Virus record (IMG/VR): IMGVR_UViG_3300044613_003770
Location: 21,304 to 85,303 of that record
Reading direction: 5' to 3' (one strand)
DNA from: a virus
Length of the DNA: 64,000 nucleotides
This document shows positions 8,252-57,995 of the stretch, piece after piece. The notes beneath the pieces were generated by a model. It was not told where the DNA came from. It did no database searches and worked only from the letters and a program-made list of their open reading frames with translations. The stretch's first letter is position 1, and each line of letters opens with the position of its first letter. A program made the position numbers and the translations under genes.

Positions 8252-8257
8252 TTTTTG

Positions 8258-11200
8258 ATGGAATATAAGATACAAACCTTTATTTTTAATGAAAAAAATC
8301 AAACAGAAAAAACTTTAAAACTTGAAAAACAAATCAATGAAATTTTTCTTGTTTCTAATGAAGAACAAAAATTATTAAAACAGTTTGATTCTTTCAAAGA
8401 TAATATAAAAAAATATGAATTATTCGTAATTAATAGTGATTCAGAAAATAGATTTGATCATTGGATCAATATTGGCGAAGATACGCATTTTAATGACCGC
8501 TTTTTTAAAGCGGTTGATTTGTTTGATGGGGATGTGTTTTTTTATATTGATTGTGATTCAATTTGTAATGATTGGACAAATTTAATAAAAAATTTAGAAA
8601 AATTTCATAAACAAAATAATTGTGGTATCTATTCTCCGAATATAATACCAACACAATATCATTCTTCAAAAAATGATATAAAAGAATTTTTAATAAATTC
8701 AAATACTCAAATCGTATCAACAATAGATAAAAATTGTTGGTCTGCGGATAAAACAATAATAGATGAATTCGACAAATATTGCAGACCCTTTTTAAGGGAA
8801 AACAAACATGGAATATGTATAAATTTACTATTGTCATCAATATCTCATTTTAAAAATAAACCAGTTATAAGAGATTATAATTTTACAGTAAATTCTAATG
8901 TTGATTTAAATTCTAACACATCTATTTTGGGTACTCTTTATATTAATGAGTTAGATACAAGAATACAAAATATATTTTTAGCAACAACTAAAATAAAGGA
9001 AGTGTCATTTGATTTTAAACAAAATTTTCTAGATGAAATAGGTATGTATCAGTTTGATAAAACTCAAATAAATACACCAGTTTATTGCATTAATCTTAAA
9101 AGGGCAAAAGAACGTAAAAAATATATTACCGAAGAATGGATTATTAAAAGAAATGTTCCAGTGACTTTTTTTGAAGGCATAGATTGTGAAGATATTGATG
9201 AATCAAACTATGATCAAATACCAGAACCTTTTAGACAGAATTTAATTAATGCTAATGCAAATAAATATCAACGTTCAAATTTAGGTTTTGACCACGATGA
9301 ATTAAAAATGGGTGAAATTTGTTGTTCGATATCTCACTGTTTGCTTCTAAAAGAATTAATAAATCTTGGTGTTGATGAAGCAATAATAATAGAAGATGAT
9401 GCAGAACCTTTATTCGAAAATATAACTGATTTATATAGAAGAATAAATAAATTCAAAATCGATATGAATGGTATTAATGTAATGCTGCTTCATGAACCAA
9501 GAAAATCTGATTTTTCAATAAATGAAGATAGACAAGATTTCTGTATTCCAAATGATCTTATATATTGTACACAATGCATTTATTACACAAGACAGGGTAT
9601 GATAGATTGCTATGAACACGCATCTAAATTAATTTTACCAATGGATTGGACTTGGGTTTTTGGATTTATTGAAAACAAACAGATAGGTTTAATAAAAAAT
9701 CCAATCACTGAACACAACATAATGACAACATATGTTAATTCAGATAATCAGTATAGATTATATATTCATAAAAATAAATGTATAATAGATGAAAGATTTA
9801 AAAAATTTAGAAAAAAGTATGATAAAAAAAAGCATCCTTTTTATAATGAAGGATTATTTTTAGAAGAATATTTCTATAATTTCTATCAAAAAAATAAAAA
9901 TAAATTTGACGAGATTGGCTATACTTATTTACCTATTTTTTGGACTGACACTTATTTATTAAATTCAGATAACAATCAAAAGATATATAAATTAGATGAA
10001 TCTTTAAGAAATTTTAGAAAAATAAATCCATCAGAGAAATATTTTGTTGTTTGTCAACACGATGATGCCCCAAGAGAATCATTACCAAGTAATACTGTTT
10101 TATTTTGTGCAGGAGGTAATATAAAAAATTCGATACCAATACCATTAATATCTGAAGCAAAAATAGAAAATGAAATCACATATGAAAAAGACATTTTTTG
10201 TAGTTTTGTTGGGTCGATTACACACCCATGTAGAGATAAAATATATGAAATATTTTCAGAAAGAGGTGATTATAGAATAATTACTAAAAAATGGTCCAAA
10301 GAAATAAGCGATAAAGAAAAAAATTTATTTATAAATATTACTAAAAGAAGTAAATATACATTATGTCCACGTGGTTATGGACCTACTAGTTGGAGATTGT
10401 ATGAAGCAATGCAGCTTGGATCAGTTCCTGTATACATATACGATGAACCGCATTTACCTTATAAAGATCAAATAGATTGGGAAAAGATATGCGTTATGAT
10501 TCACATAAATGATATACAAAATATAGATAAAATTTTAAAATCTATACCAGATCATGTATATAATGAAATGATAACAAATATACAAAAGATATATCCACTC
10601 TATTTTAATTTAGAATACATGTGTCAGTATATTTTAAATAATTTAACATCAAACAATACCTTAAACAACATTCAGATTAATGATTTTATAGATCCTCAAA
10701 CAGATCCTCAAATAGATGCTTTTATTTTTAATTGGAAAGGTCAATTACAAAAAACATTAAAAACAGAATCAGAACTATGTAAGATATTTGATAAAGTTAC
10801 TGTAATAAATAGTGATGATGGTAATAAATTTGATCATTGGATCAATATTGGTGAGGATGCATATTTCAGTGCGCAATTTTTAAAAGCATTAGAATTATTC
10901 GATGGAGATATACTTTTTCATGTACAAGGGGATGTTACATATGATAACTGGTCGTCAATCATAGAAGATGCTAAATTATATTATAAAAAATATAAATATG
11001 GTATTTATTCGCCCAATGTTGATTACACTCATTGGGATTCTACAAGAGTTGATATTGATTCATTTGGAGAAATGGATAATGAAAAATTGAAATTAGTTTC
11101 AATGACAGATTGTAGTTGTTGGTTTATTAATAAAGAAATCATAAATGAATACAAAATAAAATATTCGGATAGTTTCAAAAAAAATAAATATGGTTTTGGA

Positions 11201-12334
11201 GCTGATTTAATTAATTGTGCAATTTCTTTTAAAAAGAATATGCCAGTTCTTAGAGATTATAAATATACAGTAGATCATCCAGAATCAACCAATTATTCTT
11301 CTAAAGATGCAAGAATAATGCTAGAAGAATACATCGAAACTATTAAAGATGAAGAATTAAAATTTTTAATTAAAAAAATTAGAAATTGTGAAATTTATGA
11401 ACTCAAGGGTTATTTAAATTCGAATATAAAGTATAGTGAAATCATTAATAGCCATGTCGGAGATCATTACAATGGGTGGGCCTATATTATTAATAAATTA
11501 AAATCTAACATAAATCTAGACGACGATGGAATAATTTTAGATGGATTTGCCGACAATTGTTTATGGGAAAAAGAAAAAAAAACAATACAAAAACCTTGGA
11601 TCGGAATAGTCCACGCTTGCGAAATAAGTCCCACTGATAAAAATCAAACATGCATAGATGCATTTATTAATAATAATTGGTTCATACAAAGCTCACCATT
11701 TTGTATCGCTTTGATTACATTATCGAGTCATCACGCAAAAATTTTACAAAAAAAAGTAAATGTGCCAGTATTTAATACTACTCATCCAAAAGAAACTAGT
11801 CAAACATTTGATATTGATTCATATTTTGAAAACCCATCGATAATGCATAGTGGATTTTTTAATAGAAATTATTCAAATCTTGCTAGATTTAAAACATCGA
11901 TTCAAAAAAATATAAATATTAATAAAATTTGGTATATTGAATCAATGAATGATTGTTTTAAATTAAATGATGTTGATGGTAATGATATAAATTCATTATG
12001 TATTAATAATGTTTTTTTAAATGATGAAGATTATATTAAAAATTTATGTAAAAACATTGGATTTTGTTATTTTTATGATGCTGCAGCAAATAATTCAGTT
12101 TTAGAGCACATCATGAGTAATACTCCAATTATTGCTAATAAAATACCTTCTACAATAGAATATCTTGGCGAAGAGTATCCTATGTTTTATGAAAATATAA
12201 AAGATAATCCAGATAAATATTTACTTGATAGAAAATATATTCAAAAAGTATCTGATTATTTAAAAAATAGGTCAAATAATGATATATTTAAAATAAATCA
12301 TTTTATAAATTTCATGAGAACATTAAAAATTTAA
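8258..12334 (+). CDS. Multi-domain glycosyltransferase (1358 aa)
   Basis: At least five modules in one chain. (1) Residues ~1-265: a nucleotide-sugar transferase-like fold with a FDHWINIGED motif, then LFDGDVFFYIDCDS. (2) ~272-470: a family-25-like domain, INLKRAKERK followed by EAIIIEDDAEPL. (3) ~555-795: an exostosin/GT47-like domain ending in TLCPRGYGPTSWRLYEAMQ. (4) ~818-1010: a second copy of module 1, again with FDHWINIGED and LFDGD. (5) ~1055-1358: a GT4-like domain with HACEISPTDKN and a C-terminal Rossmann half. It probably builds a glycan on host surface or virion components. Start is ATG 8258; an in-frame TTG precedes it. Module boundaries are estimates, and acceptor and donor sugars are unknown. 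Confidence 0.75.
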   Translation: MEYKIQTFIFNEKNQTEKTLKLEKQINEIFLVSNEEQKLLKQFDSFKDNIKKYELFVINSDSENRFDHWINIGEDTHFNDRFFKAVDLFDGDVFFYIDCDSICNDWTNLIKNLEKFHKQNNCGIYSPNIIPTQYHSSKNDIKEFLINSNTQIVSTIDKNCWSADKTIIDEFDKYCRPFLRENKHGICINLLLSSISHFKNKPVIRDYNFTVNSNVDLNSNTSILGTLYINELDTRIQNIFLATTKIKEVSFDFKQNFLDEIGMYQFDKTQINTPVYCINLKRAKERKKYITEEWIIKRNVPVTFFEGIDCEDIDESNYDQIPEPFRQNLINANANKYQRSNLGFDHDELKMGEICCSISHCLLLKELINLGVDEAIIIEDDAEPLFENITDLYRRINKFKIDMNGINVMLLHEPRKSDFSINEDRQDFCIPNDLIYCTQCIYYTRQGMIDCYEHASKLILPMDWTWVFGFIENKQIGLIKNPITEHNIMTTYVNSDNQYRLYIHKNKCIIDERFKKFRKKYDKKKHPFYNEGLFLEEYFYNFYQKNKNKFDEIGYTYLPIFWTDTYLLNSDNNQKIYKLDESLRNFRKINPSEKYFVVCQHDDAPRESLPSNTVLFCAGGNIKNSIPIPLISEAKIENEITYEKDIFCSFVGSITHPCRDKIYEIFSERGDYRIITKKWSKEISDKEKNLFINITKRSKYTLCPRGYGPTSWRLYEAMQLGSVPVYIYDEPHLPYKDQIDWEKICVMIHINDIQNIDKILKSIPDHVYNEMITNIQKIYPLYFNLEYMCQYILNNLTSNNTLNNIQINDFIDPQTDPQIDAFIFNWKGQLQKTLKTESELCKIFDKVTVINSDDGNKFDHWINIGEDAYFSAQFLKALELFDGDILFHVQGDVTYDNWSSIIEDAKLYYKKYKYGIYSPNVDYTHWDSTRVDIDSFGEMDNEKLKLVSMTDCSCWFINKEIINEYKIKYSDSFKKNKYGFGADLINCAISFKKNMPVLRDYKYTVDHPESTNYSSKDARIMLEEYIETIKDEELKFLIKKIRNCEIYELKGYLNSNIKYSEIINSHVGDHYNGWAYIINKLKSNINLDDDGIILDGFADNCLWEKEKKTIQKPWIGIVHACEISPTDKNQTCIDAFINNNWFIQSSPFCIALITLSSHHAKILQKKVNVPVFNTTHPKETSQTFDIDSYFENPSIMHSGFFNRNYSNLARFKTSIQKNININKIWYIESMNDCFKLNDVDGNDINSLCINNVFLNDEDYIKNLCKNIGFCYFYDAAANNSVLEHIMSNTPIIANKIPSTIEYLGEEYPMFYENIKDNPDKYLLDRKYIQKVSDYLKNRSNNDIFKINHFINFMRTLKI

Positions 12335-32360: not shown

Positions 32361-33396
32361 AGAACAACAAGAATTTATCGCAAAAGAAGCAAAGAATAAT
32401 ACAAATTTAAATGAATTAACTCAAAAATGCTTTAATAACGATGATTTAGATGGTCGCTCCAAAGAAGGGCGGTTAGTTCGTCAATTTTTAATTGAAAATG
32501 AAATTAAATTTATTACAAGTCGTCGTCCAAAAAAAGATGAAATTAATTTTTCACAACAACAAAAAGATTTTATTATACAACAAGCGGAAGCTGGCTTATC
32601 TTCTTTAAAAATAGCTGAAATAATTTTTCCAGATAGAGATGTAAAGCCTTTAAGCAACGAACAAAGGAGTGTTTTAGAAGCAATTAAAGAAATAAATCCT
32701 GATTTTCTACCATCACAAGATTCTGGGGCATTAAATGATTATATAGCCCCAAAATCACCCCCAAGGATAGTTAAAAAGATTAATGATGCTACTGGGATGA
32801 ATTTAGATGAAGCAAAATTAAATAGACCAATGAAAATTTGTGTCGAAAGATTGGGTATTAATTTAAATAATTCTAGATTCGTTAAAATCGTCAATAACTA
32901 TCTATCAAAAAGCGATCGGGAGTTATTTGAACAAGAATTTATTCGTTTAACATGGGATAAGCCAGATTTAACTGCAGATGAAATTAATTTATATTTAAAT
33001 GTCTGCAAGGAAATCATTAATTTGGAAGTAATTAGCTGTCATTTGAATAAATTAAATGAAATGTTTGATATAGCTGATGATCAAAACGAAATGAGCGTTC
33101 GTTTATCAGAGATAATTAAAGCAAAAAGCAGCGAATACCATCAATGCGAAAATCGCATAGAAAATTTAACAAAAAAACTTCAAGGTGATAGAGCTGAAAG
33201 AATGAAAAGCAGACAAAAAGAAAATGCTTCGATTTTATCAATAGTTCAATTATTTCAAGAACAAGATGAAAGACAAAACATGGTTCGTATAGCAGAAATG
33301 CAAAAAGAATTAGTCAAAGAAGAGGCTAATCGTTTAGAAGGAATGTCTGAATGGAAAGCCAGGGTCTTAGGAATATATCAAGATGATGTCATTTAA
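32347..33396 (+). CDS. Putative DNA-binding protein, terminase small-subunit candidate (349 aa)
   Basis: Two helix-turn-helix-like repeats at the N-terminus (EQQEFIAKEAKNNTNLNELTQ..., and QQKDFIIQQAEAGLSSLKIAEIIF with GRSKEGRLVRQFL / LSNEQRSVLEAI after each). A central helical region follows, and a long coiled coil near the C-terminus. HTH plus coiled coil, just upstream of the nuclease and TerL genes, is what a small terminase would look like. No diagnostic motif proves it. Start at ATG 32347. Confidence 0.5.
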   Translation: MNLTKEQQEFIAKEAKNNTNLNELTQKCFNNDDLDGRSKEGRLVRQFLIENEIKFITSRRPKKDEINFSQQQKDFIIQQAEAGLSSLKIAEIIFPDRDVKPLSNEQRSVLEAIKEINPDFLPSQDSGALNDYIAPKSPPRIVKKINDATGMNLDEAKLNRPMKICVERLGINLNNSRFVKIVNNYLSKSDRELFEQEFIRLTWDKPDLTADEINLYLNVCKEIINLEVISCHLNKLNEMFDIADDQNEMSVRLSEIIKAKSSEYHQCENRIENLTKKLQGDRAERMKSRQKENASILSIVQLFQEQDERQNMVRIAEMQKELVKEEANRLEGMSEWKARVLGIYQDDVI

Positions 33397-34348
33397 ATGC
33401 AAAGAGTGTAATCAGGAATTTCCTGGTTTAAAAAACCTCCATACGCATATCAAAAAACATGATATGTTTCTTGGGGACTATTATGTAAAACATTTTCAAA
33501 GAAAAAATAAATTAACGGGCGAATTATTACCATTTAAAAATTATGATGATTATTTTGAAAAAGATTTCTCTCAACCAAAACAACTTCAAGAATGGTGTGA
33601 AAAAGCATCTTTTATGGATGTTAAAGAATATATTATCGAATTAATGGATAGGAGAATCAAGGCAAAGAATCTTAATTCAGGTTTAAGTTCTCTTGAGCTT
33701 TGGACTGCTGGTTTGCCTGATATTGACATGTATAAAAAATACTTTGGGAGTTATACTGATGCATGTAAAAAATGTTTAATCGAACCAATGTTTAATGGAA
33801 AATTACCCAAAGAGTTTTGGAATGATTATTCAAACATAAAAATTCTAATTGATACTAGAGAACAAAAACCATTATGGTTTAATAAATCAGAGATTTTAAA
33901 ATTAGATATAGGAGATTATGCTGTTTCTGGAGATAAATATGATTATACTTATGTAGACCGCAAATCTTTCAATGACTTCTGTGGTACAGTTACATCATCT
34001 TACAATAGATTTGTTAAAGAGTTGGAGAGGTGCAGGAGTTTAGGCTGTTATTTATTTATTGTTATAGAAGCACCCCTTCATAAGATGGATGAATACAACA
34101 AAAATAGTTATAAAAAATTCAACCTTAATTATGTTTTTCATAACATGAGGCAGCTACAAAGAGATTACAGCAATTGTTGTCAATTTGTCTTTAGTGGCTC
34201 TAGAGGTTTGAGTGCAGAATTAATACCAAAATTATTGATACTCGGAAAATCCTTATGGAAGACTGATATGCAGTATTTTTGGTCAAAAAGAATAGAAAAA
34301 TATGGCTTGGATAACAGGAGTACAAAAGAGGAGAAAAAGATTTCCTAA
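33386..34348 (+). CDS. C2H2 zinc-finger ERCC4-type nuclease (320 aa)
   Basis: The N-terminus MSFKCKECNQEF...LHTHIKKH is a C2H2 finger (Cys5, Cys8, His21, His25). From ~residue 152 an ERCC4/XPF-like nuclease core appears: ILIDTREQKPLWF, LDIGDYAV and YVDRKSFNDFCG, with a helix containing FVKELERCRSLGC and FIVIEAP. These Asp/Arg/Asp/Lys residues are the metal-dependent active site of the XPF/Mus81 family. Located between the HTH gene and TerL and overlapping TerL by 47 bp, so it may act on packaging intermediates or branched DNA. The finger and nuclease in one chain are notable. Confidence 0.75.
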   Translation: MSFKCKECNQEFPGLKNLHTHIKKHDMFLGDYYVKHFQRKNKLTGELLPFKNYDDYFEKDFSQPKQLQEWCEKASFMDVKEYIIELMDRRIKAKNLNSGLSSLELWTAGLPDIDMYKKYFGSYTDACKKCLIEPMFNGKLPKEFWNDYSNIKILIDTREQKPLWFNKSEILKLDIGDYAVSGDKYDYTYVDRKSFNDFCGTVTSSYNRFVKELERCRSLGCYLFIVIEAPLHKMDEYNKNSYKKFNLNYVFHNMRQLQRDYSNCCQFVFSGSRGLSAELIPKLLILGKSLWKTDMQYFWSKRIEKYGLDNRSTKEEKKIS

Positions 34349-38563: not shown

Positions 38564-40096
38564 ATGAATTATAAATATACTACAATATTTGAAGCTCCTG
38601 TTCAAGCTTGCAAAATAAGTGATAACTCATTTATCTCAAAAGCTTCTTTAGATAATCTGCATTCTTTTGTTCCCAAAGATATAGATTTTGAACAAAATAT
38701 TGATTTAATTGGTGTAGCATTTAATGCTGCAGTTGTTAATAAGTTCAATAAAAATGGCGATGGCATGGATACAGATACAGCCATAACATTTACCAAAAAC
38801 TTTTTACATAAACCGACAAACATAGAACATAATAAAGAAAAAATTGTTGGACATATAGCCAGTGCTGGATTTAGCAAATATGGATCAAGTGAAATTTTAA
38901 CCCCAGAGGAAGTAGAGGGTAAAAACGATATGTTTAACATAGCTCTTGGTGCTGTTGTTTATCGTTCTGCAAATAAAGCTTTTGCTGATCTATTAGAAAG
39001 ATCTACAGATCCTAATGATCCATATTATCAAAAAATATCGACAAGCTGGGAAGTCGGATTCACTGATTATGTTTTAGCTTTAGGAAGTTCAGATTTAAAA
39101 GATGCTGAAATCATTTCGGATGAAAAAGCAATTGATAGTTTGAAAAAACATTTAAGAATTTATGGAGGAAGCGGTAAAACAGAAGATGGTAAAAATATTT
39201 ATCGTTTAATAACTGGTAAAATTTATCCTCTAGGAATTGGTTTTACAACTAACCCAGCTGCAGATGTAAAAGGAGTATTTAAACCTCAAGAAAATCAACC
39301 ATTAATAAAAATTAATGATAAAAGAGATAAAAATACTAATAAAATTTCACAAAGTGAAAATATTAATGTAAAAAATAAAAACAAATTCATTATGGATATC
39401 GAAACAATGATCTCAGAATTAAAAGATCTTCTTATAGAGAAAAAGTTTTCTGAAGAGGCTGTCGCTTCTATGACTACTACTTTTGCTGACGCAATCAGAC
39501 AAAAGGACGAGCAATATCGTCAAGATATTGAAGCCGTTAAGTTAGAAAAAGAGACAATCGCAAAAGAACACTCTGAACTTAAAGAGTCTGTAGAAACGCT
39601 TCATAACAAACTTACAGAAGCGCAAGAAAAAATAAATTCTTTTGAAGCTACGCAAAAAGCTGAACAAGCTATTGCTAGATTTAATGAAAGAATGGATCTC
39701 ATTGATCAAGAGTACTCTCTTGAAGATGAAGATCGTGAATTTCTTGCTCAAGAGCTTAAAACTCTTGATGTAAATGAAGAAGCTTTTGCTTCTTTTAAAG
39801 AAAAACTTTCTATTCTTTGGAAGGATAAAAATAAAGAAGCTAAGGCGGCTTTTGAGGCTCAAATTCAAGCTCGTATTGATGCCGAGGTCGAAAAACGCCT
39901 TTCAAAAGTTTCAACTGCATCATTGAGTGATCCAGAAGAATCCGATAAAGAGGTATCTACAGAAGAAATTCTTGATAATGTAGAGACATCTGAAGCGGGA
40001 ATCGCTAATTCAAACGAAACAGCATCGAGAGACTCGATCTCTCTTCGTGATAAATTTGCTGCAGCTTTTAATCGTGAAAATATAACAATATCTTAA
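38564..40096 (+). CDS. Prohead protease fused to scaffold (510 aa)
   Basis: Residues ~1-240 resemble the capsid maturation proteases (S78/U35-like): IDLIGVAFNAAVVNKFNKNGDG, KPTNIEHNKEKIVGHI with a catalytic-type His, and ISTSWEVGF with Ser. Residues ~275-510 are a long acidic coiled coil typical of scaffold proteins. A protease-scaffold fusion would be made together and then self-cleaved during head maturation. A Met at FIMDIETMISEL (~275) could be an internal start for the scaffold alone. Immediately upstream of the capsid genes. Confidence 0.75.
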   Translation: MNYKYTTIFEAPVQACKISDNSFISKASLDNLHSFVPKDIDFEQNIDLIGVAFNAAVVNKFNKNGDGMDTDTAITFTKNFLHKPTNIEHNKEKIVGHIASAGFSKYGSSEILTPEEVEGKNDMFNIALGAVVYRSANKAFADLLERSTDPNDPYYQKISTSWEVGFTDYVLALGSSDLKDAEIISDEKAIDSLKKHLRIYGGSGKTEDGKNIYRLITGKIYPLGIGFTTNPAADVKGVFKPQENQPLIKINDKRDKNTNKISQSENINVKNKNKFIMDIETMISELKDLLIEKKFSEEAVASMTTTFADAIRQKDEQYRQDIEAVKLEKETIAKEHSELKESVETLHNKLTEAQEKINSFEATQKAEQAIARFNERMDLIDQEYSLEDEDREFLAQELKTLDVNEEAFASFKEKLSILWKDKNKEAKAAFEAQIQARIDAEVEKRLSKVSTASLSDPEESDKEVSTEEILDNVETSEAGIANSNETASRDSISLRDKFAAAFNRENITIS

Positions 40097-48134: not shown

Positions 48135-51100
48135 ATGCCAATTCAAATTCCAGTAACACAAACAGGTCTCGAAGCAAGTATTCAAGCAGCAGCGCAAAAA
48201 GCTGGGCGTAATTTAAAAATAGACTTAGGGTCTAACGCAAGAAGTATTAATGCTTTATCTCAGCCGTTAGGGAGGATTACTGGCCAAGCAGATGAGTTCA
48301 CTAAATCAATGGAAGCTGCTAATGCTCGCGTATTAGCATTCGGAGCCTCAGTTGGCGTTCTTAATTCGGTCATACAGGGATTTAAATCTTTAGTTACTAC
48401 AACAATTGAGGTTGAAAAATCATTAGCGGATATAAATAGCGTTTTACAAGGTTCAGGCGCACAGCTAAATAAATTTAAAAAAGATATTTTTGATGTAGCA
48501 AGAGAAACTGGTAATTCTTTTAAAACTGTATCAGAAGCGGCTTTGGAATTAAGTCGCCAAGGTTTACCAGCAAATGAAGTCGTTACAAGACTTAAAGATT
48601 CAATGATATTGGCTAGACTTTCTGGTCTCGATGCAGCACAATCTGTAGAGGGATTAACGGCGGCAGTTAACTCATTTTCAAAAGAAGGCTTAACATCGTC
48701 TCAAGTTTTAAATAAAATTTCTAACGCAGCTGCTAAATACGCTGTTTCTGAAAGAGATTTGATTGAAGGTTTTAAAAGATCTGCTTCAGTTGCACAACAG
48801 GCTGGCGTAAGCATTGATGAATTAGGCGGTATTATTACTGCGGTTCAACAAAAATCAGCTCGCGGTGGAGCCGTTATTGGCAACTCGTTTAAAACCATTT
48901 TTACAAGAATACAGAGACCAGAAAGCTTAAAATTATTAGAAGAAATTGGTGTTAAGGTTTTAGATTTAAAGGGTAATGTAGTTCCAGCTACAAAACTACT
49001 TGAGGGTTTAGCTTCAAAAATTTCTGGTCTTAATGATGTTGAGGTTGCAAGTATTACTGAAAAAATTGGCGGCGGATTTCAAATCGCTCCATTACTGTCT
49101 GCGTTAGATGATTATAGTAGCAAGGCTTCAGTTGCGCGTGGAGCGACTGAAGCTTTTTTAAATGCTGGTACTGAAGCTTATCAAAGAAATGCAGCGTTGA
49201 ATCAAACAATGGCGGCTGCAATTAATGAAGCGTCAGTTAATTTAAAAGAATTTGCAAACACCTTGGGCGAAATTGGCGTGACGAAAGGTTTAAGTAATGT
49301 TTTGTCGTTTTTTAATACTTTTATTTCAGATGTTCAGGATCTTTTAGAAGGCGAGGGATTGGGTTCTAAATTCGCTAGATCAATCGTTGAGGGTATAGGA
49401 AATGTTTTATCTGGTCCTGGTTTGGCTATATTTGGTGGCATAATATTAAAACTAACGACAGATTTAGTTAAGTTCGGAACGCAAAGTTTAAAAACATTTT
49501 TTAATATCGGCAGTGCGGCAAAAGAAATAAATACATTACAAGGCTCCATAGCTAGTACTCTATTAAGAAACAAAGATATACAAGCTCAAATATTAGCTTT
49601 AGAAGGAAATAGGGCTGCGCAAGCTAGATTTTTTACTACAGCTTTAAATGAGCAGTATTCCACTATGCAGAAAATGCAAAATATTGCCGCTTCAATAGCT
49701 CCTGCAGTTTATGGAGGAACAGTTTCAAGTAAAAAAAGTAGCGGTAAAAACGCTGCGGGTGGTTATATGCCAGCCATCTCTCAGGAATCGCGTGATATTA
49801 GTCGTGGAGTTGGTGGAGCAAGAGGTGGCGATAGGCCAGTAGTAATTCCAAATTTTGCATTTGGTGGTGGCAAAAAAGGAACGATGGTCGCTCATACTGG
49901 TGAATATATTGTTCCTAATTTTGCAGGAGGTGGTTCAGCTATCTTTAATAGAGATATGGTTAGATCAATGGGTCTTCCAGCTGGTGCTAAAAAGATTGGT
50001 GCTGCTGGAGGATTTATACCAAATTTTGCTGAATGGTATAATCGTGATACTACAAAAGTAAAAACTTCAACATCAATGCCTACTACCGCTGGGGATTGGA
50101 TAAAGGTTAGATCTAGTTCTGAAAGTATTAGAAAATACTCAGAGAATGTGGATCAATATAAAGTTCGTGATACTGATTTTTATTTATTTCCAGATGGAAC
50201 AGGTTCCCGTGGAAATACTGTTAGAGATACTTTAGGGAGAAATAAATCTAGAGCTGTTGAAAAAGCAGAAGAAGAACAAGAAAAAGTTAATAAAGCTGGA
50301 TCTTTCACTTTAAACGCTGATCAATTAGGTGGTATCGGTTTAATCTCACCAAGATTTGGTAAAAGTGGTGTAGGTTCAGTTGATACAAAAATGACAGCGG
50401 GTGAAGTTGCGTTTTTTAATCAAAATGAAAAATCATTTCCAATTGATAAAAATAAATACATAAAATTATTAGGAATAAAAACAGCTAACACACCAAGTGG
50501 AAGAAGTTTCCAACAATTACAAGGGGATGTGAGTGAATTATTTGCTGGTGGAGTTGTTGATCTTGCTTATAGATTATATGGTGGGACTTTTGATCCAGCA
50601 AGTGGTGGAGAATTTACTCAAAAATTAAGAGCTTTATCTCCAGATAAAAAACAACAATTAATACCAGCCGCCGCACAAGGTGATTTATTTGAAGCTGCTG
50701 GAAAAGTGGCTTTAGGTAGTATTCAAAATTTAGAATCATTATTTAATCAATCAGACCAAAATAGACCATTTGATTTTAATAATAGAGCTGCGATGCAGAA
50801 AATGTTTGGTTTTGATGTTGGAAAAGGTGAAGCTAAAAGAGGTGGAGAAGGAGACTCTTTGGCTGCTTTTTTAGGCACAAAACAAGTTAAAGGTATTATT
50901 ACAAAAGTATTTAATGATCCAGAGTATTCTCCGAAAGCGTTAGATGCTTTAAAAGCTCAAGGAGCTTTTAGTATAGAGATGCAAAGACAGAAAAAAGAAA
51001 AAGAAATCTCTAATGCTATAAGTGGTTTCGTTCCTAACTTTGCTTCATATCCATATAAATTATCTACGCTTGCTCCAACTGAAAAAGAAGGACAAAGATC

Positions 51101-54100
51101 TTACTCAAAATGGGAAAAATGGAATCAACTTTCAGGCGAAGAAAAGAAAAACACACCATATAAAAGTAAGGTCATAAATAATCCTTATGCTATTAAGCAA
51201 TTCAATCAAGGATTACGTTTAAATCCTAATGTAGAAAAAGATGATAAAGTTGATTCACTTGGATTTAGGGTGACAAAAGTACCTATTTATGACGAAAAAT
51301 TAAAAGAAGAAATCATAAATAAAAAAAATTCTAAAGAAGCGGGTAGAAGATTTGAAAAGTTGGCGCTTGAATTTTTAAAATATAATGATGGTTCTGAATT
51401 TTTATATAACAGAGATAAAAGTTCTGTAGATGGATTTAAATTTAAGGGGAATAAAAATATAGATTTATTAGAAGTTAAAGCTGGTGAATGGAATGCTTCA
51501 GAAGTTCAAAATAAATTTGGTAGATTTGTGCCAGAGAACATCAACCTATCTGGCTCATCTTTGATAAAAGAAGAATTAAATAAACTTTTTACAGAAGGTG
51601 TTCCAAGAGAACAAGATGTAATTAAATTAAATAATACATTAGCTATTCCAGATATAGAAGGATATAGTGGGAAAATTAAAGCTGGTGGTAAAGCAGATCC
51701 AAATAAAAAACAAAAAGATTTTTATGATGCCTTTTCAGTATCTCAATTATCTCAAGCTCAAAATGCAAAACTTAAAAAGGGTTCAATGGGTTATATCCCT
51801 AATTTCGTAAACCAAAAATACGTAATGGATACTCTTGCTAGAATAAAAGCTGGCACAAGCGGCTTTTCAAAACAAGAACAAGAAACATTTTTAAATAAAT
51901 TTGGCGCAAAATCTACTGGAAGAAAAATTTCTCTTAGAGAAGTTTATGATAAATTAGACGGTGATATCGGTATCTCAGCATTGATTGATAAAGCTTATGT
52001 GGCAGCTGGACCGACAGCCTCAAATGAAGATGTTTATAGAGTATTTGAAAAACAAATTAAAGCAAATCCATATGCACTAAGAGGTCTTGTAAGCAAAAAA
52101 GGTTTTATTCCAAACTTCGCAGATCCACTTAAAGAAGCTATTGGTCGCGAAATATCCGCTGGTGTTCCAGCTTCACAAATTTATGTAGACCAAAATTCAT
52201 CATTAAAGAACTCCATGAATCCAATGGGATTAATGGTTGCTAATCGTCGTGATGAACCAGCTGGTGGTATACAAGGAATTAATCGCGCAAGAAAAGAAGG
52301 CGCTAATCCAATGTTGTATGGCGCGGCTGATGGATTTATTCCTAATTATGCTCCACAACTTGGAGAGGCAACAAGGTCTGATATGGGTAGAACCAGAATT
52401 AGTGATCAAGCAATAACTGATTTTAATAATTCCTTAAAAGGGGTTTCTGATCAACTAAGAAAAGGATCTATATCTTTTGCTGATGCTAATTTGAAAGTTG
52501 ATCAATTGGCTAAATCTACTGGATCGACACAAGCACAAGTCATGAAACTTGGAGCCGTTGGTCAGGGTTTAATTACAGCATACAACAATGAACTTCAAGC
52601 TAGAAATCAAAAAGCTAAAGAATTAAAAGAACAGAGAGCGGGTAGAAGCACAGAAACTGCAGGTTCTAAAGGATCAAGAGACATGCTTGGCACTATTTTT
52701 GCAGTACAGGCTGGATTATCATTATTAACTGGCGCGACTAATGACTCCACTAATGCTTTAGTAAGATATACCAATGTTATTTCAAATTCATTAGGAAATA
52801 TCACAACCGCTGCTTTTGCGGCAAGCGCATTTAAAGATATGGCCACAACAGGCAAGGGGCTTGTTGGGGTATTTGGAAAATTAGGAGTTGCTGGCGCAGC
52901 CGTTGGTGCTGCATTTGCATTATTTGAAGGCGGCAAACAGCTTTATTATGAATATTCAGGAGCCAATAAAAGAGCATCGGATGCCGCTAATATTTTAGCT
53001 TCATCTGCAGAAAAGGCGGCAGTTAGATTAGAAAATTTAAATCCAGAATCTAAAGAGAGTATTAATAAAACAGTTGAGGATATTATTAAAAAACTTAATA
53101 TCCAAGTGAGTGAACCAGAACTCCCAAAATTAAAAGAAGCAATAACAACTGGATTACTTGGCACTTCAAGAACTAATGTTGAAGGTATACTTAGGGAAAA
53201 TCTCACACCTAGTAAATTACAAAAAAAAGAAATAGATACTTCTGAACCATCCCTAATGGATGCATTAAGAGCTGGAGCTGCATCTTCGCCTGGTACTATG
53301 GTTCCAAATGTTAAATATAAATACACTACAGAGGAAGCATTGACTGGAGACCCATTAAAAGCAATAGCAGCTTTGGCTGAACAAGGTGTTTCTGGGCAGG
53401 GTGCAACTTTAATGGGGCCATTCTTATCTCTCGTAAAAGAAGCAAAAAATGCAGAGGAACTTTCTTCGTTTTTGGCTAATCCAAAATTAAATGAAAAAAT
53501 TAATGAAAACTTAAAAAATATAGATACAAAAAGTTTATTTGATTTGACAGATATAAATAAAACTTTTGAGCAAGTGTCAATACTTAATAACAGTAAGGAT
53601 TTTGCTAAAACATTTGAGGCTATGGAAGGTAAAACATCCCTTGTGAGTAGCTTAAAAGAACAAGAAGCATCTATTGCAATAATTTATGAGTTTGTAAAAT
53701 TAATACAAGCCGCAAGAGAAGAAACAGAAAAAAATGCTACCATAGAAACGGCAAAACAAGAACAAGCTTTATCGAGAGCATTACAAGATTCTCTTAAAAA
53801 ATCAGTCTTAGAGAGGCCAACAAAAACGATGCAACAAGCTGGTTCTCTTTTAGAGTCATCTTTAGAAATATCTAACAAACAAAAATTACTGCAAATTACT
53901 GGAGATCTGTCTATTTCTGAAGATTTAAGAAAACAAAAATTAGAAGAAGTCAATCATCAATATGAAATTTCTAAAATTGGATTACAAAACCAATTAAAAT
54001 TAATAAAACAATTAGATTCTTCTTTAGAAAAAATATCCTCTGGAGATATTTTAGGTTTTGGTTCAAACTCTGAACAAGCAGCTAAACAAGCAAAAGCTTT

Positions 54101-57100
54101 TATTGAAAAATTTACTTCAGATCCAAATAATCAAAACGCTCTTGAAGGTTTATTGGCGGGTAATAAAAATCAAAATTTTATTAATCAATTAAGATCTCAA
54201 GTCCAAACAGGAGCTAATTTATTTAATACACCAGGAAAACAAGATGAGCTTATAAGAATAATAAAAGAATATTATGAATTAACACAGGATATCACTCTTG
54301 AAGAGAAAACACAAATAAACAATAAGCAAAAACTTTTTGAAGCATCTCAAAAAGAGCTTTCTATAGAAAAACAGCGTCAAAATCTTATTGAAAAAGGTAA
54401 CTTATATATAAAAACCGCGCAGAGCAGATTAACTGGCAGAATAGAAGATATTTCAAATGAATCACAATTAAATGAAGCTAGAAAAAATCTTGAAATAAAA
54501 AGATTTGAAAAAACTGGCAAAACTGTAGATCCACGCGAAAACGAAAGAATAATTGAATCTATCAATGAAAAATATTTTAAATTACAACAAGATTTAAATG
54601 ATCAAAAGGCTGAAGCAGAAATAAAACTCGAAATAACAAGAGGTCTAAAAATAGATGACAACATAACTTCTTTAGGCGCAAACACAACAGCAATTGGAAG
54701 TGTTCAAGATGCATTGATTAATAATGTACTACCAGTATTAAATACTTTGCCAAAAAACATGGCGGAACAATTAAAGAATGCTGTGTTAGGTTTAAATAAC
54801 GGCGGTCAACCTGTTCCTCAAACAGCGCAGACAACAAGCGGAGTAAGTGGTACTATTGGAATGCCATATAGAGCAAATACAAGTAGCGGCGATGTTAAAT
54901 CTTTATTGGATTTAGTGAGTAAAGAAATTAGCTCAGATCCTAAATACCTTGCTGCTGTTTATGGAAATGTAATGAAAGAATCTGGTGGTAAACCAATCAC
55001 AGAAGCTTCTGATTATTCTAATACAGATAATAAAAGAATAAGATCAATTTTTGGTGATAGGGTTAACTGGATGACAGATGAAGACTTATCCGAGCTTAAA
55101 AAAGATCCTATGTTTTTGGGAAAAATGTATGGTCCAAAATATCAAATAGGTAAAAATCTTGGTAATAAAAGCGAGGAAGAAGGTTTTAACTATAGGGGAC
55201 GTGGATATGTTCAGATAACTGGTAGAAAGGCTTATGAAGAAGCTGGAAAGGCTATTGGTAAAGACTTACTACGTGATCCAGACTTAGCTGCACATCCAGA
55301 AATTGCAAAACAAATTGCTGTTTGGCAGTTAAGAGATAGAAAAGATCAATTTACTGGAGGCGGTTTCAATAAATTATTACTAGAAGGTGATCAATCTAAA
55401 ATTAATAAAGCTGTAACTAGTCAATTCGCTGGTCAATCAGCTAATAGAGGATACTTAGGCGATTTATTAAAAATAGTTGATAATTTTGCTGATAAATTTT
55501 TAAAAGGTTCGACTGATCTGGGAGGTTCTTTAGATAATACGAGTAAAAACTTTTTACAGGCTTCTGGTTATCTTGAAGAAACATCTTCTACAGCACAGAC
55601 GAATATTGATAATCTTAGATTAGAGTTAGCTGGTAAAGATAGAAATAAAGCGCCTAATCAAGATCTTCAAGATAAAATTAGGCGTATAGTTGCTGAAACA
55701 TATGGACCTAGTGCAATAGCTACAATTTATAGCGGCATGGGTTATACCCCAGGCGGATCAAGAAGACATGAACCCCAAGAAGGTGGAAAAGCTGCGGATA
55801 TATATGTTGAAATAGATGGAAAAAAAGTTACAGGCGAGGAATTAGCTAAACTTGGAGCAAGGTGGGTTACTGGTGGATATGGTAGTGCTGGTTATGGAAT
55901 GGACTATCAAGGCATTAAAGGTAGTGGAATTCATTTAGATACTTTTACCAAAGATCAGTTGAAATCAGGAGAGGGATTAAGCTGGGGGTATGGTGGACAA
56001 ACAGGTTCTATGTTGAAAAATCTAATAAGTAGAATGGGAGGCGAACCAGGTGTTAGCGCTTCAGCGTTAGCTAATCAAACATTATCTCAAACAAATCCAA
56101 TATATCAGGCTGGAGAAAGAATTTCGGGAATTTCAGATTCAACCGCAAGAACTGAATCCGCGCTAGAAGAGGCAAAAAAATTGGTTGATAGAACTGGGAA
56201 AAGCGACGAGGAGATAAAGAAAAAAATCAATGAAATAGCCAACCAAATTATTGCAGCTAGTGATGCTATCATATCAAAGGGTAAAACCAAAACAACGGCT
56301 GACGCATTAAATCAACTTAGTAAACAAAATACAAAGTTAGAAGCACAACCAGGTACATTTGCTAGTGGATTTACTACTGGAATGGAGAATATAAATAAAG
56401 AAATAGCAGGTTTCTCCGAACAAATAGGCGAAAAAGTGCCAGCACTATTTGCCGATAATATGGCAAAGGCAATGGAAGATGCTATATTAAATGGTGAAGA
56501 CTTAGAAACATCTTTAAGAAGTGCGGCAACAGCGTTTTTAACAGAAATAAATAGATCTAACTTTAAGAATTTAGCCAATATATTTACTAGTGGATTACAG
56601 CAAGCTGGTAGTTCAATATTTAGCTTATTTACTCAAAGAGCTTCTGGTGGACCAATTACTGGTGGTTCTGGAACAAAAGACGATGTGCCAGCATTATTAA
56701 TGGGCGGCGAGTTTGTTATGAATAAAAAATCCGTATCTAAATACGGCATGAATTTCATGAACCAGTTAAATAATGGAAATCTTCCAAAATTTGCAAAAGG
56801 TGGTTCTGTAGAAGAGATATCTGATATAAGTAAAATAGGAAAACAAACCATTTTTTCTGGTAAAGTTGGATCAGAAATTGTAGGGCAATATGATGAGGGT
56901 AAAGCGCCAAGGCAAGTTGCTACTGGTGGAGGGTTTTATTCTCCAGGTATGTATGGATCTGGGTCTATAATAGGAAAAGCGGATTTGTTAGCTTTTGCTA
57001 CGCAGTCACAAACCTCTGGAGCAAAAGATGTAATTATGAATGAAGATAAATTAGCATATGCTAGTTTAGAGCCAGAAAGCGCTAGATTGACCGTAAGCGG

Positions 57101-57995
57101 AAGAATGAATAGCCCTGAGTTTCAAGCCGTTCAGAAAGATAAAGAAGAGGCATTTAATTTGTATCTTCAACAACTAAATCAAGAACAAGCGCTCAAAGAA
57201 AAAGAAAAAGCCGAAAAAAAGGCATTCAGAAAAGCATGGCAAACAGCTTTATGGACTACCGTAGCAAGTTCCGTTATTTCAGCGATTGCTAAACCAGCTA
57301 TGGCTGGTTTTCAAGCTGGCATGGGACAAGCGGCATCACAGAATTTAACTGGCTTCCAAGCATTAGGTTCTGGATTTAAGGGGATTTGGTCTGGTGGCAA
57401 TTTTGCTGGCACACAGATTGGAGGCTTGTCGAATTTCTTTTCTGGCAATAATCAGTTAGCTAATATAGGAACAGTATCTCAACTATCATCTTTATATCAA
57501 AGTAATCCAAATTCAAATTTAGGTAAATTACTAGCTTCAAATTCTAGTAATTATATTAGTGGGATTTCAATACCAAAAGCTATTCCAGTAAATAGAGCTA
57601 CAGGAGGTTTAATACCTAATACGTCTGGTACTGATACAACTCAAGCAATGTTAAGTGGTGGAGAGTTTATTATGAATAGGGCTGCAACTCAAAATATAGG
57701 TGTTGGAGCTTTACAATCATTAAATGCTGGCGGTAGACAGAATTCTACTGAAAGCGCTGATAAAATTGTTTCTAAATTAGATGAATTAATTGCAGCTATT
57801 AAAGAAAATATGAGTGGCAATATTTCTGTAAACGTGAATTCTAATGCGGCTTCTGAAAAAGAAACGGCTGATAGTTCAAGTAGTGGTAATAATTCAGAAT
57901 CAAATAATATGTTGAAGAAAAAAATCAAAGCCGCTGTTATGGAAGTAATTCAACAAGAAAAAAGATTAGGGGGTTCGTTAAGATTTACTCAATAA
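48135..57995 (+). CDS. Tape measure protein with embedded nuclease-like and muralytic domains (3286 aa)
   Basis: Residues ~75-340 are a TP901-type tape measure core (EVEKSLADINSVL, ALELSRQGLP, GVSIDELGGIITAVQQ). (I/V)PNFA-type motifs occur at ~566, 588, 625, 962, 1218, 1321 and 1398. The segment between 962 and 1218 contains SKEAGRRFEKLALEFL then NIDLLEVKAGEW, a PD-(D/E)XK-like nuclease pattern. A hydrophobic stretch lies at ~1515-1595 and long coiled coils at ~1640-2200. A GH19-like lysozyme/chitinase domain follows (~2250-2455; GRGYVQITGRKAY), then an M15-like peptidase domain (~2500-2625; RRHEPQEGGKAADI, GIHLD). Two GGxFxM-type blocks (DDVPALLMGGEFVM ~2840, TQAMLSGGEFIM ~3160) precede the end. 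It sets tail length and crosses the envelope at DNA entry. Confidence 0.85.
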   Translation: MPIQIPVTQTGLEASIQAAAQKAGRNLKIDLGSNARSINALSQPLGRITGQADEFTKSMEAANARVLAFGASVGVLNSVIQGFKSLVTTTIEVEKSLADINSVLQGSGAQLNKFKKDIFDVARETGNSFKTVSEAALELSRQGLPANEVVTRLKDSMILARLSGLDAAQSVEGLTAAVNSFSKEGLTSSQVLNKISNAAAKYAVSERDLIEGFKRSASVAQQAGVSIDELGGIITAVQQKSARGGAVIGNSFKTIFTRIQRPESLKLLEEIGVKVLDLKGNVVPATKLLEGLASKISGLNDVEVASITEKIGGGFQIAPLLSALDDYSSKASVARGATEAFLNAGTEAYQRNAALNQTMAAAINEASVNLKEFANTLGEIGVTKGLSNVLSFFNTFISDVQDLLEGEGLGSKFARSIVEGIGNVLSGPGLAIFGGIILKLTTDLVKFGTQSLKTFFNIGSAAKEINTLQGSIASTLLRNKDIQAQILALEGNRAAQARFFTTALNEQYSTMQKMQNIAASIAPAVYGGTVSSKKSSGKNAAGGYMPAISQESRDISRGVGGARGGDRPVVIPNFAFGGGKKGTMVAHTGEYIVPNFAGGGSAIFNRDMVRSMGLPAGAKKIGAAGGFIPNFAEWYNRDTTKVKTSTSMPTTAGDWIKVRSSSESIRKYSENVDQYKVRDTDFYLFPDGTGSRGNTVRDTLGRNKSRAVEKAEEEQEKVNKAGSFTLNADQLGGIGLISPRFGKSGVGSVDTKMTAGEVAFFNQNEKSFPIDKNKYIKLLGIKTANTPSGRSFQQLQGDVSELFAGGVVDLAYRLYGGTFDPASGGEFTQKLRALSPDKKQQLIPAAAQGDLFEAAGKVALGSIQNLESLFNQSDQNRPFDFNNRAAMQKMFGFDVGKGEAKRGGEGDSLAAFLGTKQVKGIITKVFNDPEYSPKALDALKAQGAFSIEMQRQKKEKEISNAISGFVPNFASYPYKLSTLAPTEKEGQRSYSKWEKWNQLSGEEKKNTPYKSKVINNPYAIKQFNQGLRLNPNVEKDDKVDSLGFRVTKVPIYDEKLKEEIINKKNSKEAGRRFEKLALEFLKYNDGSEFLYNRDKSSVDGFKFKGNKNIDLLEVKAGEWNASEVQNKFGRFVPENINLSGSSLIKEELNKLFTEGVPREQDVIKLNNTLAIPDIEGYSGKIKAGGKADPNKKQKDFYDAFSVSQLSQAQNAKLKKGSMGYIPNFVNQKYVMDTLARIKAGTSGFSKQEQETFLNKFGAKSTGRKISLREVYDKLDGDIGISALIDKAYVAAGPTASNEDVYRVFEKQIKANPYALRGLVSKKGFIPNFADPLKEAIGREISAGVPASQIYVDQNSSLKNSMNPMGLMVANRRDEPAGGIQGINRARKEGANPMLYGAADGFIPNYAPQLGEATRSDMGRTRISDQAITDFNNSLKGVSDQLRKGSISFADANLKVDQLAKSTGSTQAQVMKLGAVGQGLITAYNNELQARNQKAKELKEQRAGRSTETAGSKGSRDMLGTIFAVQAGLSLLTGATNDSTNALVRYTNVISNSLGNITTAAFAASAFKDMATTGKGLVGVFGKLGVAGAAVGAAFALFEGGKQLYYEYSGANKRASDAANILASSAEKAAVRLENLNPESKESINKTVEDIIKKLNIQVSEPELPKLKEAITTGLLGTSRTNVEGILRENLTPSKLQKKEIDTSEPSLMDALRAGAASSPGTMVPNVKYKYTTEEALTGDPLKAIAALAEQGVSGQGATLMGPFLSLVKEAKNAEELSSFLANPKLNEKINENLKNIDTKSLFDLTDINKTFEQVSILNNSKDFAKTFEAMEGKTSLVSSLKEQEASIAIIYEFVKLIQAAREETEKNATIETAKQEQALSRALQDSLKKSVLERPTKTMQQAGSLLESSLEISNKQKLLQITGDLSISEDLRKQKLEEVNHQYEISKIGLQNQLKLIKQLDSSLEKISSGDILGFGSNSEQAAKQAKAFIEKFTSDPNNQNALEGLLAGNKNQNFINQLRSQVQTGANLFNTPGKQDELIRIIKEYYELTQDITLEEKTQINNKQKLFEASQKELSIEKQRQNLIEKGNLYIKTAQSRLTGRIEDISNESQLNEARKNLEIKRFEKTGKTVDPRENERIIESINEKYFKLQQDLNDQKAEAEIKLEITRGLKIDDNITSLGANTTAIGSVQDALINNVLPVLNTLPKNMAEQLKNAVLGLNNGGQPVPQTAQTTSGVSGTIGMPYRANTSSGDVKSLLDLVSKEISSDPKYLAAVYGNVMKESGGKPITEASDYSNTDNKRIRSIFGDRVNWMTDEDLSELKKDPMFLGKMYGPKYQIGKNLGNKSEEEGFNYRGRGYVQITGRKAYEEAGKAIGKDLLRDPDLAAHPEIAKQIAVWQLRDRKDQFTGGGFNKLLLEGDQSKINKAVTSQFAGQSANRGYLGDLLKIVDNFADKFLKGSTDLGGSLDNTSKNFLQASGYLEETSSTAQTNIDNLRLELAGKDRNKAPNQDLQDKIRRIVAETYGPSAIATIYSGMGYTPGGSRRHEPQEGGKAADIYVEIDGKKVTGEELAKLGARWVTGGYGSAGYGMDYQGIKGSGIHLDTFTKDQLKSGEGLSWGYGGQTGSMLKNLISRMGGEPGVSASALANQTLSQTNPIYQAGERISGISDSTARTESALEEAKKLVDRTGKSDEEIKKKINEIANQIIAASDAIISKGKTKTTADALNQLSKQNTKLEAQPGTFASGFTTGMENINKEIAGFSEQIGEKVPALFADNMAKAMEDAILNGEDLETSLRSAATAFLTEINRSNFKNLANIFTSGLQQAGSSIFSLFTQRASGGPITGGSGTKDDVPALLMGGEFVMNKKSVSKYGMNFMNQLNNGNLPKFAKGGSVEEISDISKIGKQTIFSGKVGSEIVGQYDEGKAPRQVATGGGFYSPGMYGSGSIIGKADLLAFATQSQTSGAKDVIMNEDKLAYASLEPESARLTVSGRMNSPEFQAVQKDKEEAFNLYLQQLNQEQALKEKEKAEKKAFRKAWQTALWTTVASSVISAIAKPAMAGFQAGMGQAASQNLTGFQALGSGFKGIWSGGNFAGTQIGGLSNFFSGNNQLANIGTVSQLSSLYQSNPNSNLGKLLASNSSNYISGISIPKAIPVNRATGGLIPNTSGTDTTQAMLSGGEFIMNRAATQNIGVGALQSLNAGGRQNSTESADKIVSKLDELIAAIKENMSGNISVNVNSNAASEKETADSSSSGNNSESNNMLKKKIKAAVMEVIQQEKRLGGSLRFTQ

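Follow-up and report, generated by a model that had tools for sequence, protein, structure and literature searches.

The tape measure protein and its motifs

The window, which is the whole stretch of 64,000 nucleotides of viral DNA that was analysed, encodes a tape measure protein (TMP) of 3286 aa. The assignment rests on a TMP profile in the N-terminal part of a very long ORF within a tail gene block. Several PHROG tape-measure profiles match this N-terminus, and a PHROG profile search also gave a minor tail protein match downstream of the gene. A GH19/endolysin-like stretch falls within aa 2015–2427, where phrog_181 (endolysin) matches over aa 2015–2397 (1.4e-19). The phage is remote from isolates, with terminase identities of about 22–29% to the best records. 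The features of the gene are as follows.

48135..57995, + strand: TMP, 3286 aa (PhageMin_Tail, 3.5e-30; phrog_4211 'tail length tape measure protein', 8.5e-50)
48492..49073, + strand: PhageMin_Tail domain, aa 120–313, domain profile match
49821..50000, + strand: N-terminal cap, small predicted beta domain, aa 563–622, which holds motifs 1 and 2 (AlphaFold2 pLDDT about 83–94)
49845..49859, + strand: motif 1, IPNFA, aa 571–575
49911..49925, + strand: motif 2, VPNFA, aa 593–597
50016..50030, + strand: motif 3, GF-IPNFA, aa 628–632; array entry and exchange junction with L002 and L003
50031..51029, + strand: putative cargo module 3, 333 aa, PD-(D/E)xK nuclease-like (G849, E853, D880 (FDF), E899-A-K901, K924)
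51030..51044, + strand: motif 4, GF-VPNFA, aa 966–970
51045..51794, + strand: putative cargo module 4, 250 aa, PD-(D/E)xK-like (signature GRRFEKLA...SSVDGF...LLEVKAG, aa 1070–1117)
51795..51809, + strand: motif 5, GY-IPNFV, aa 1221–1225; exchange junction with L001
51810..52106, + strand: putative cargo module 5, 99 aa, predicted helical; an unrelated segment is in its place in L001
52107..52121, + strand: motif 6, GF-IPNFA, aa 1325–1329; exchange junction with L001 and L002
52122..52337, + strand: module 6, conserved closing module, predicted helix-strand-strand-helix (RE..AG...NP.GL.V.N..DEP.G)
52338..52352, + strand: motif 7, GF-IPNYA, aa 1402–1406; array end
55173..55328, + strand: Glyco_hydro_19 domain (peptidoglycan or chitin lytic), aa 2347–2398 (6.8e-08)
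56646..56804, + strand: generic TMP element, GG.....DDVPALLMGGEFVMNKK...LPKFAKGG, by inspection a likely relative of the cap and motif
57603..57677, + strand: second generic TMP element, GGLIPNTSGTDTTQAMLSGGEFIMN, likewise a likely relative by inspection

An earlier note on this DNA had claimed seven [IV]PN[FY][AV] motifs, too regular for chance and often placed after GGF or GYI. All seven are present in frame in the TMP ORF, where 0.055 PN[FY][AV] would be expected from composition and the maximum in 2000 shuffles is two. Five of the seven are preceded by G[FY] (GGF, SGF, MGY, KGF, DGF). A six-frame scan found the motif in no gene of the window but this one. The note had also given the segments between motifs as about 90–340 residues, which is true of three (333, 250 and 99 aa) and fails for the other three (17, 30 and 72 aa). 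The short segments are parts of the small N-terminal cap domain and the conserved 72-aa closing module. Approximately 1880 aa of the TMP follow the array, so that the modules are internal.

Three other ORFs of the window were recorded. An ERCC4-type nuclease with a C2H2 zinc finger at its N-terminus (33383–34348) adjoins the terminase gene. A 1359-aa ORF (8255–12334) looks glycosyltransferase-like by eye and is followed by a smaller, similar-looking ORF. Finally, the product of 38564–40096 weakly resembles capsid scaffold serine peptidases (match to Phage_GPO at E about 1e-3) and is possibly a fused scaffold-protease.

Exchange of segments at the motif

Close relatives of the TMP are found on three contigs and have the same motifs with different segments between them. 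In two relatives, whose surrounding DNA is approximately 96% identical, unrelated segments start and end at the motif. Here, L002 is 96% identical to the window up to position 50029 (at motif 3). What follows in L002 is unrelated until the match starts again at 52098, just before motif 6 (24-kb comparison). In L001, only 51807–52098 is replaced, that is, the segment between motifs 5 and 6. L003 also departs from the window at motif 3, and the start of its next module, KYIYDSDRI, is common to L002. Beyond the array, the TMP stretches encoded by 52784–53755 and 54830–56053 are without homology to L002, which is elsewhere 96–99% identical.

The generality of this pattern is seen when TMP genes are compared with each other by blastn and the 1004 positions at which matches of 80% identity or more start or stop are taken as breakpoints. 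Of the breakpoints in the array region, 86% are within 30 bp of a motif versus 16% expected for random positions, and for matches of at least 90% identity the values are 91% versus 15%. In these figures, the conserved motif itself makes each match longer, by as much as about 20 bp. Pairs of related genes are also not independent of one another, and when only unique breakpoint positions are counted, the fractions are 81% (at least 80% identity) and 88% (at least 90%). Homology stops just after a motif and begins just before one, and therefore the motif is a shared junction. Segments are exchanged whole, from joint to joint. The earlier claim that the motifs separate independent, cargo-like segments thus finds strong support, both in this swapping and in the enzyme signatures that many segments have.

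A DNA-level recombination site, att- or integron-like, was considered as the main reading and rejected. The codons of the motif vary and its silent identity within genes is barely above what codon usage predicts (third-position identity 0.55 versus 0.50 expected), and the seven copies in the window all differ in DNA. As the silent sites vary, selection acts on the protein.

Distribution of the motif

A search of other tape measures had been suggested as a check. IMG/VR was searched with degenerate DNA patterns for GFIPNFA, GYIPNFA and GFVPNFA, and 1–8 copies per protein were found in at least 267 long ORFs on IMG/VR contigs, nearly all of them TMPs. TMP N-terminal homology is present in 143 of the 157 listed ORFs that have at least 450 aa before the first motif; in these 157, the first GFIPNFA is at a median of aa 630. 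Among the matches listed, at least two motifs occur in one ORF at 228 of 305 viral loci, and more than one motif per ORF occurs in 2 of 119 stretches from 84,980 cellular genomes. A reversed-peptide control gave 22 stretches in all of IMG/VR and never two in one ORF. A few proteins, L230, L258 and L288 among them, have a single match that is probably due to chance. Among the matches listed, those in cellular genomes are chance except on two metagenome-assembled (MAG) contigs, L321 and L374. These contigs, labelled Proteobacteria and Woesebacteria, respectively, have several motifs, are probably phage fragments and provide possible host leads.

Over 837 non-redundant places among the matches listed, the consensus of the joint is A/S-x-G-[FY]-[IV]-P-N-F-A, with nothing conserved after it. 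The F and A are 83–90% conserved and the preceding G 85%, while P and N were fixed by the search. The cap profile (aa 560–632) matches at 589 places in 246 of the 267 motif proteins listed, and module 6 is found in 178 of them. In 50,697 phage records, no match was found to the array, module 6, the P-loop module, the HAD module or one module of L116; an SNase-like module matches two hypothetical proteins there. PADLOC returned nothing beyond scattered weak matches.

The modules and their enzyme signatures

The two largest modules of the window TMP are nuclease-like. Module 3 contains the conserved E...D...(D/E)xK of PD-(D/E)xK enzymes, and across 29 aligned homologues a G, E, D, K and K are invariant, E853, D880 and K901 among them. 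The superfamily has an alpha-beta-beta-beta-alpha-beta core; the AlphaFold2 model of module 3 is confident in part (pLDDT mostly 73–93 over about aa 713–940) and has no Foldseek match. Module 3 has no match in Pfam, PHROGs or PDB sequences either. Module 4 has no Pfam match, and among the motif proteins listed its only full-length match is in L001. A homologue of module 5 is present in the divergent L048. In the model of modules 4–6, only module 6 (pLDDT about 87–96 over most of its length) and part of module 5 are confident, and Foldseek gave no significant match for this region. As neither module 3 nor modules 4–6 have a structure match, the enzyme identities rest mainly on sequence signatures.

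Among the matches listed, 676 segments fall into 176 groups, of which 151 have a median length of at least 90 aa and 107 of these are single. The PD-(D/E)xK nuclease-like class is the commonest. Its three largest groups (117 segments) are related at 95–99% by profile comparison and keep E...D...xK. Other groups include a P-loop group with a Walker A motif, a HAD group with DxDxT...TxR...K...D, a HEXXH peptidase-like group and, by eye, a kinase-like group (DLHGSNY...DPG). GNAT and HATPase groups were assigned by Pfam, and SNase weakly so; for many groups the Pfam support is below curated cut-offs. Regex scans for ART and GNAT signatures performed no better than on shuffled sequence, and ART assignments, which come from a few N-terminal LYRG segments, are therefore leads only. 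Where polyvalent proteins (see below) combine several effector classes in one polypeptide, the window TMP has two nuclease-like signatures, and the wider range of classes, many below Pfam cut-offs, is seen across relatives only. Many modules have enzyme signatures and may be active enzymes.

These families bear on whether the segments have effector function at all. A plain flexible linker at recombination-tolerant positions, with segments that serve as filler or as length-adjusting tape, would suit a protein class that tolerates insertions, as TMPs do. It would also suit the nuclease-like groups, where the median dN/dS is 0.6–0.8, a rough value from divergent pairs, which could mean weak constraint and may reflect fast diversification. 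This reading is improbable, as the HAD and P-loop families are strongly constrained (median dN/dS 0.12 and 0.17) and keep their catalytic motifs, and a neutral linker would not hold seven residues so strictly. In addition, a longer array does not go with a shorter remainder of the TMP (Spearman 0.23, p = 0.18), which argues against simple length tuning.

The abundance of nuclease-like modules could also point to selfish exchange, in which these modules spread themselves in the manner of homing endonucleases, with the array as a by-product. The available text of PMC10448857 reports phage nuclease genes at exchange boundaries. Here, many modules belong to other classes (P-loop, HAD, GNAT, kinase-like), the listed loci have no second motif-bearing ORF, and the breakpoints fall at a protein motif with varying codons, all of which make this a very doubtful account.

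The joint and its wider relatives

Homologues of the modules are also found in proteins gathered by way of a different joint. A search with IQKFAGG gave a set of long phage proteins, of which 21 have at least 400 aa; TMP N-terminal homology is detectable in only 9 of these 21. Homologues of the P-loop module are present in L452, L453 and L498 of this set, those of the HAD module in L456, L461, L465 and L492, and those of group 30, which is GNAT-like by eye only, in L452, L465 and L492. L452 and L453 have no match to [IVLM]PN[FYI][AVSGD]. Instead, QKFAGGG-type strings and a GEFV element flank their segments. As cargo in these two proteins has QKFAGGG joints, the PNFA joint is probably one lineage's form of a wider TMP element, a relation proposed by inspection. 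The TMP of L453, which is of the QKFAGGG type, also has a repeat of approximately 70 aa (KIRADQLRIGDVLSSGETV...), present three times in tandem at aa about 1050–1300.

In the models of the window TMP, motif 1 is a predicted beta strand inside the cap and motif 2 is beside a strand, while motifs 3–7 are in low-confidence, linker-like stretches between better predicted units. As most copies are in such stretches, the three functions offered by the earlier note (cleavage, docking, hinge) all fit. In the first of these, the motif is a protease site, and the TMP is cut at each GFIPNFA in assembly or entry to free the modules. The placement of motifs 3–7 is consistent with cutting, the F, A and G are conserved as sharply as in a cleavage signal, and the scaffold-protease match mentioned above offers a weak candidate enzyme. 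Cleavage is nonetheless unlikely. The motif is in no other ORF of the window, including the head genes that this candidate would cut, no protease gene is visibly linked, and motif 1, a strand in a well-predicted domain, would be a poor site. Furthermore, the QKFAGGG-type joints of homologous cargo in L452 and L453 argue against one universal cleavage signal. Computational analysis gave no evidence of cutting at the motif.

Docking is a tentative but more credible role. Here, the motif would be a strand or tag that attaches to the inside of the tube, to a tail chaperone or to the cap domain, and it would set the order and spacing of the modules. The predicted strand of motif 1 in the cap fits this, as does the likeness by eye between the motif and the leading part of the generic element GG[LF]IPN...GEF[VI]MN, which this TMP has at its C-terminal end. 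Against it, motifs 3–7 have no confidently predicted structure, and the models, being of single chains, would not reveal docking, for which there is no known partner.

A proposed array of exchangeable cargo

The preferred reading, which we consider somewhat probable, is that an array of exchangeable cargo forms part of the TMP in this phage and in many of its uncultivated relatives and is ejected with the DNA, the motif being an exposed joint between modules. The array is well supported, and the cargo nature of the modules is likely. In the proposed layout, the PhageMin_Tail domain would be followed by the fixed cap, usually 1–5 variable modules, often the closing module and then the coiled-coil/lytic part, with A-x-G-[FY]-[IV]-P-N-F-A as the link between successive units. 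The joint, as a linear motif, would ensure that modules can still be packed and ejected; a tail or chaperone partner may bind it, or it may be cut.

The order of delivery is proposed by analogy. In phage 80alpha, each tail has three copies of the TMP, which extend from the neck (N-terminus) to the tip (C-terminus) (PMC11661146). The lambda TMP becomes labelled by a protein of the inner membrane while it is being injected (PMC13190303). By analogy with these two proteins, the TMP would leave the tail C-terminus first, so that the GH19 domain reaches the wall first, the cargo comes next, entering the host with or before the DNA, and the DNA is last. The modules, nucleases above all, would then act as early effectors in the host. 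No obvious immunity or self-protection gene for the modules was seen. The tube lumen is about 4 nm, and a folded module of 25–35 kDa, in three copies per tail, would be hard to fit in it, which counts against the cargo reading. The modules would probably be unfolded or remodelled to pass the tube, as the available text of PMC13277306 suggests for a TMP-like effector.

Relation to known systems

Multi-effector injected proteins, effector swapping and TMP-derived effectors are already known from polyvalent proteins, polymorphic toxins and Sle1, respectively. Polyvalent proteins (Iyer et al. 2017, PMC5512222) are also large, multidomain phage proteins that were inferred to be virion-borne and injected; they mix ART, GNAT, kinase, nuclease and peptidase-like effector domains and are encoded near late genes. 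In contrast to these, the carrier here is a TMP (the term 'tape measure' is absent from PMC5512222), the joint is repeated and the exchange is module by module between near-identical genes. Polymorphic toxin systems (PMC3482391) share the recombination of variable effector domains behind a conserved carrier. However, they have a single C-terminal toxin domain, whereas the array has several internal modules in series in a virion protein that continues beyond them, with no obvious immunity gene.

The Sle1/Tme effectors of contractile injection systems (CIS) combine a tape-measure-like coiled coil with diverse effector domains and are called reconfigurable in the available text of PMC13277306. 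Unlike the array, these belong to a bacterial nanomachine and have a C-terminal effector, and that text mentions no joint motif or multi-module array. An enzyme domain inside a TMP is known from mycobacteriophage TM4, whose TMP has peptidoglycan hydrolase motifs (PMC1796659), comparable with the GH19 domain here. The array differs in that it lies apart from the lytic domain, and its modules look like intracellular proteins and not like enzymes directed at the wall. A search of the literature, mostly of open-access journal papers, found none that describes PNFA joints in the TMPs of phages or arrays of exchangeable effectors in them.

Significance

In its widest form, which we regard as evenly balanced between true and false, the proposal is that many environmental phages use their TMPs as magazines, in which interchangeable early effectors are replaced one cassette at a time at a short protein motif. 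This would be a widespread, undescribed delivery system that changes the arsenal of the first minutes of infection without changing the tail. If this is right, the TMP would be a reconfigurable payload and not only a ruler, and the joint motif would be a simple string with which to find such payloads in viral metagenomes. The approximately 150 module families, most of them without a known relative, would then offer new nucleases and enzymes that modify the host. Phages that are nearly identical but differ in their modules would serve as natural experiments that link a module to host range or to host defence.
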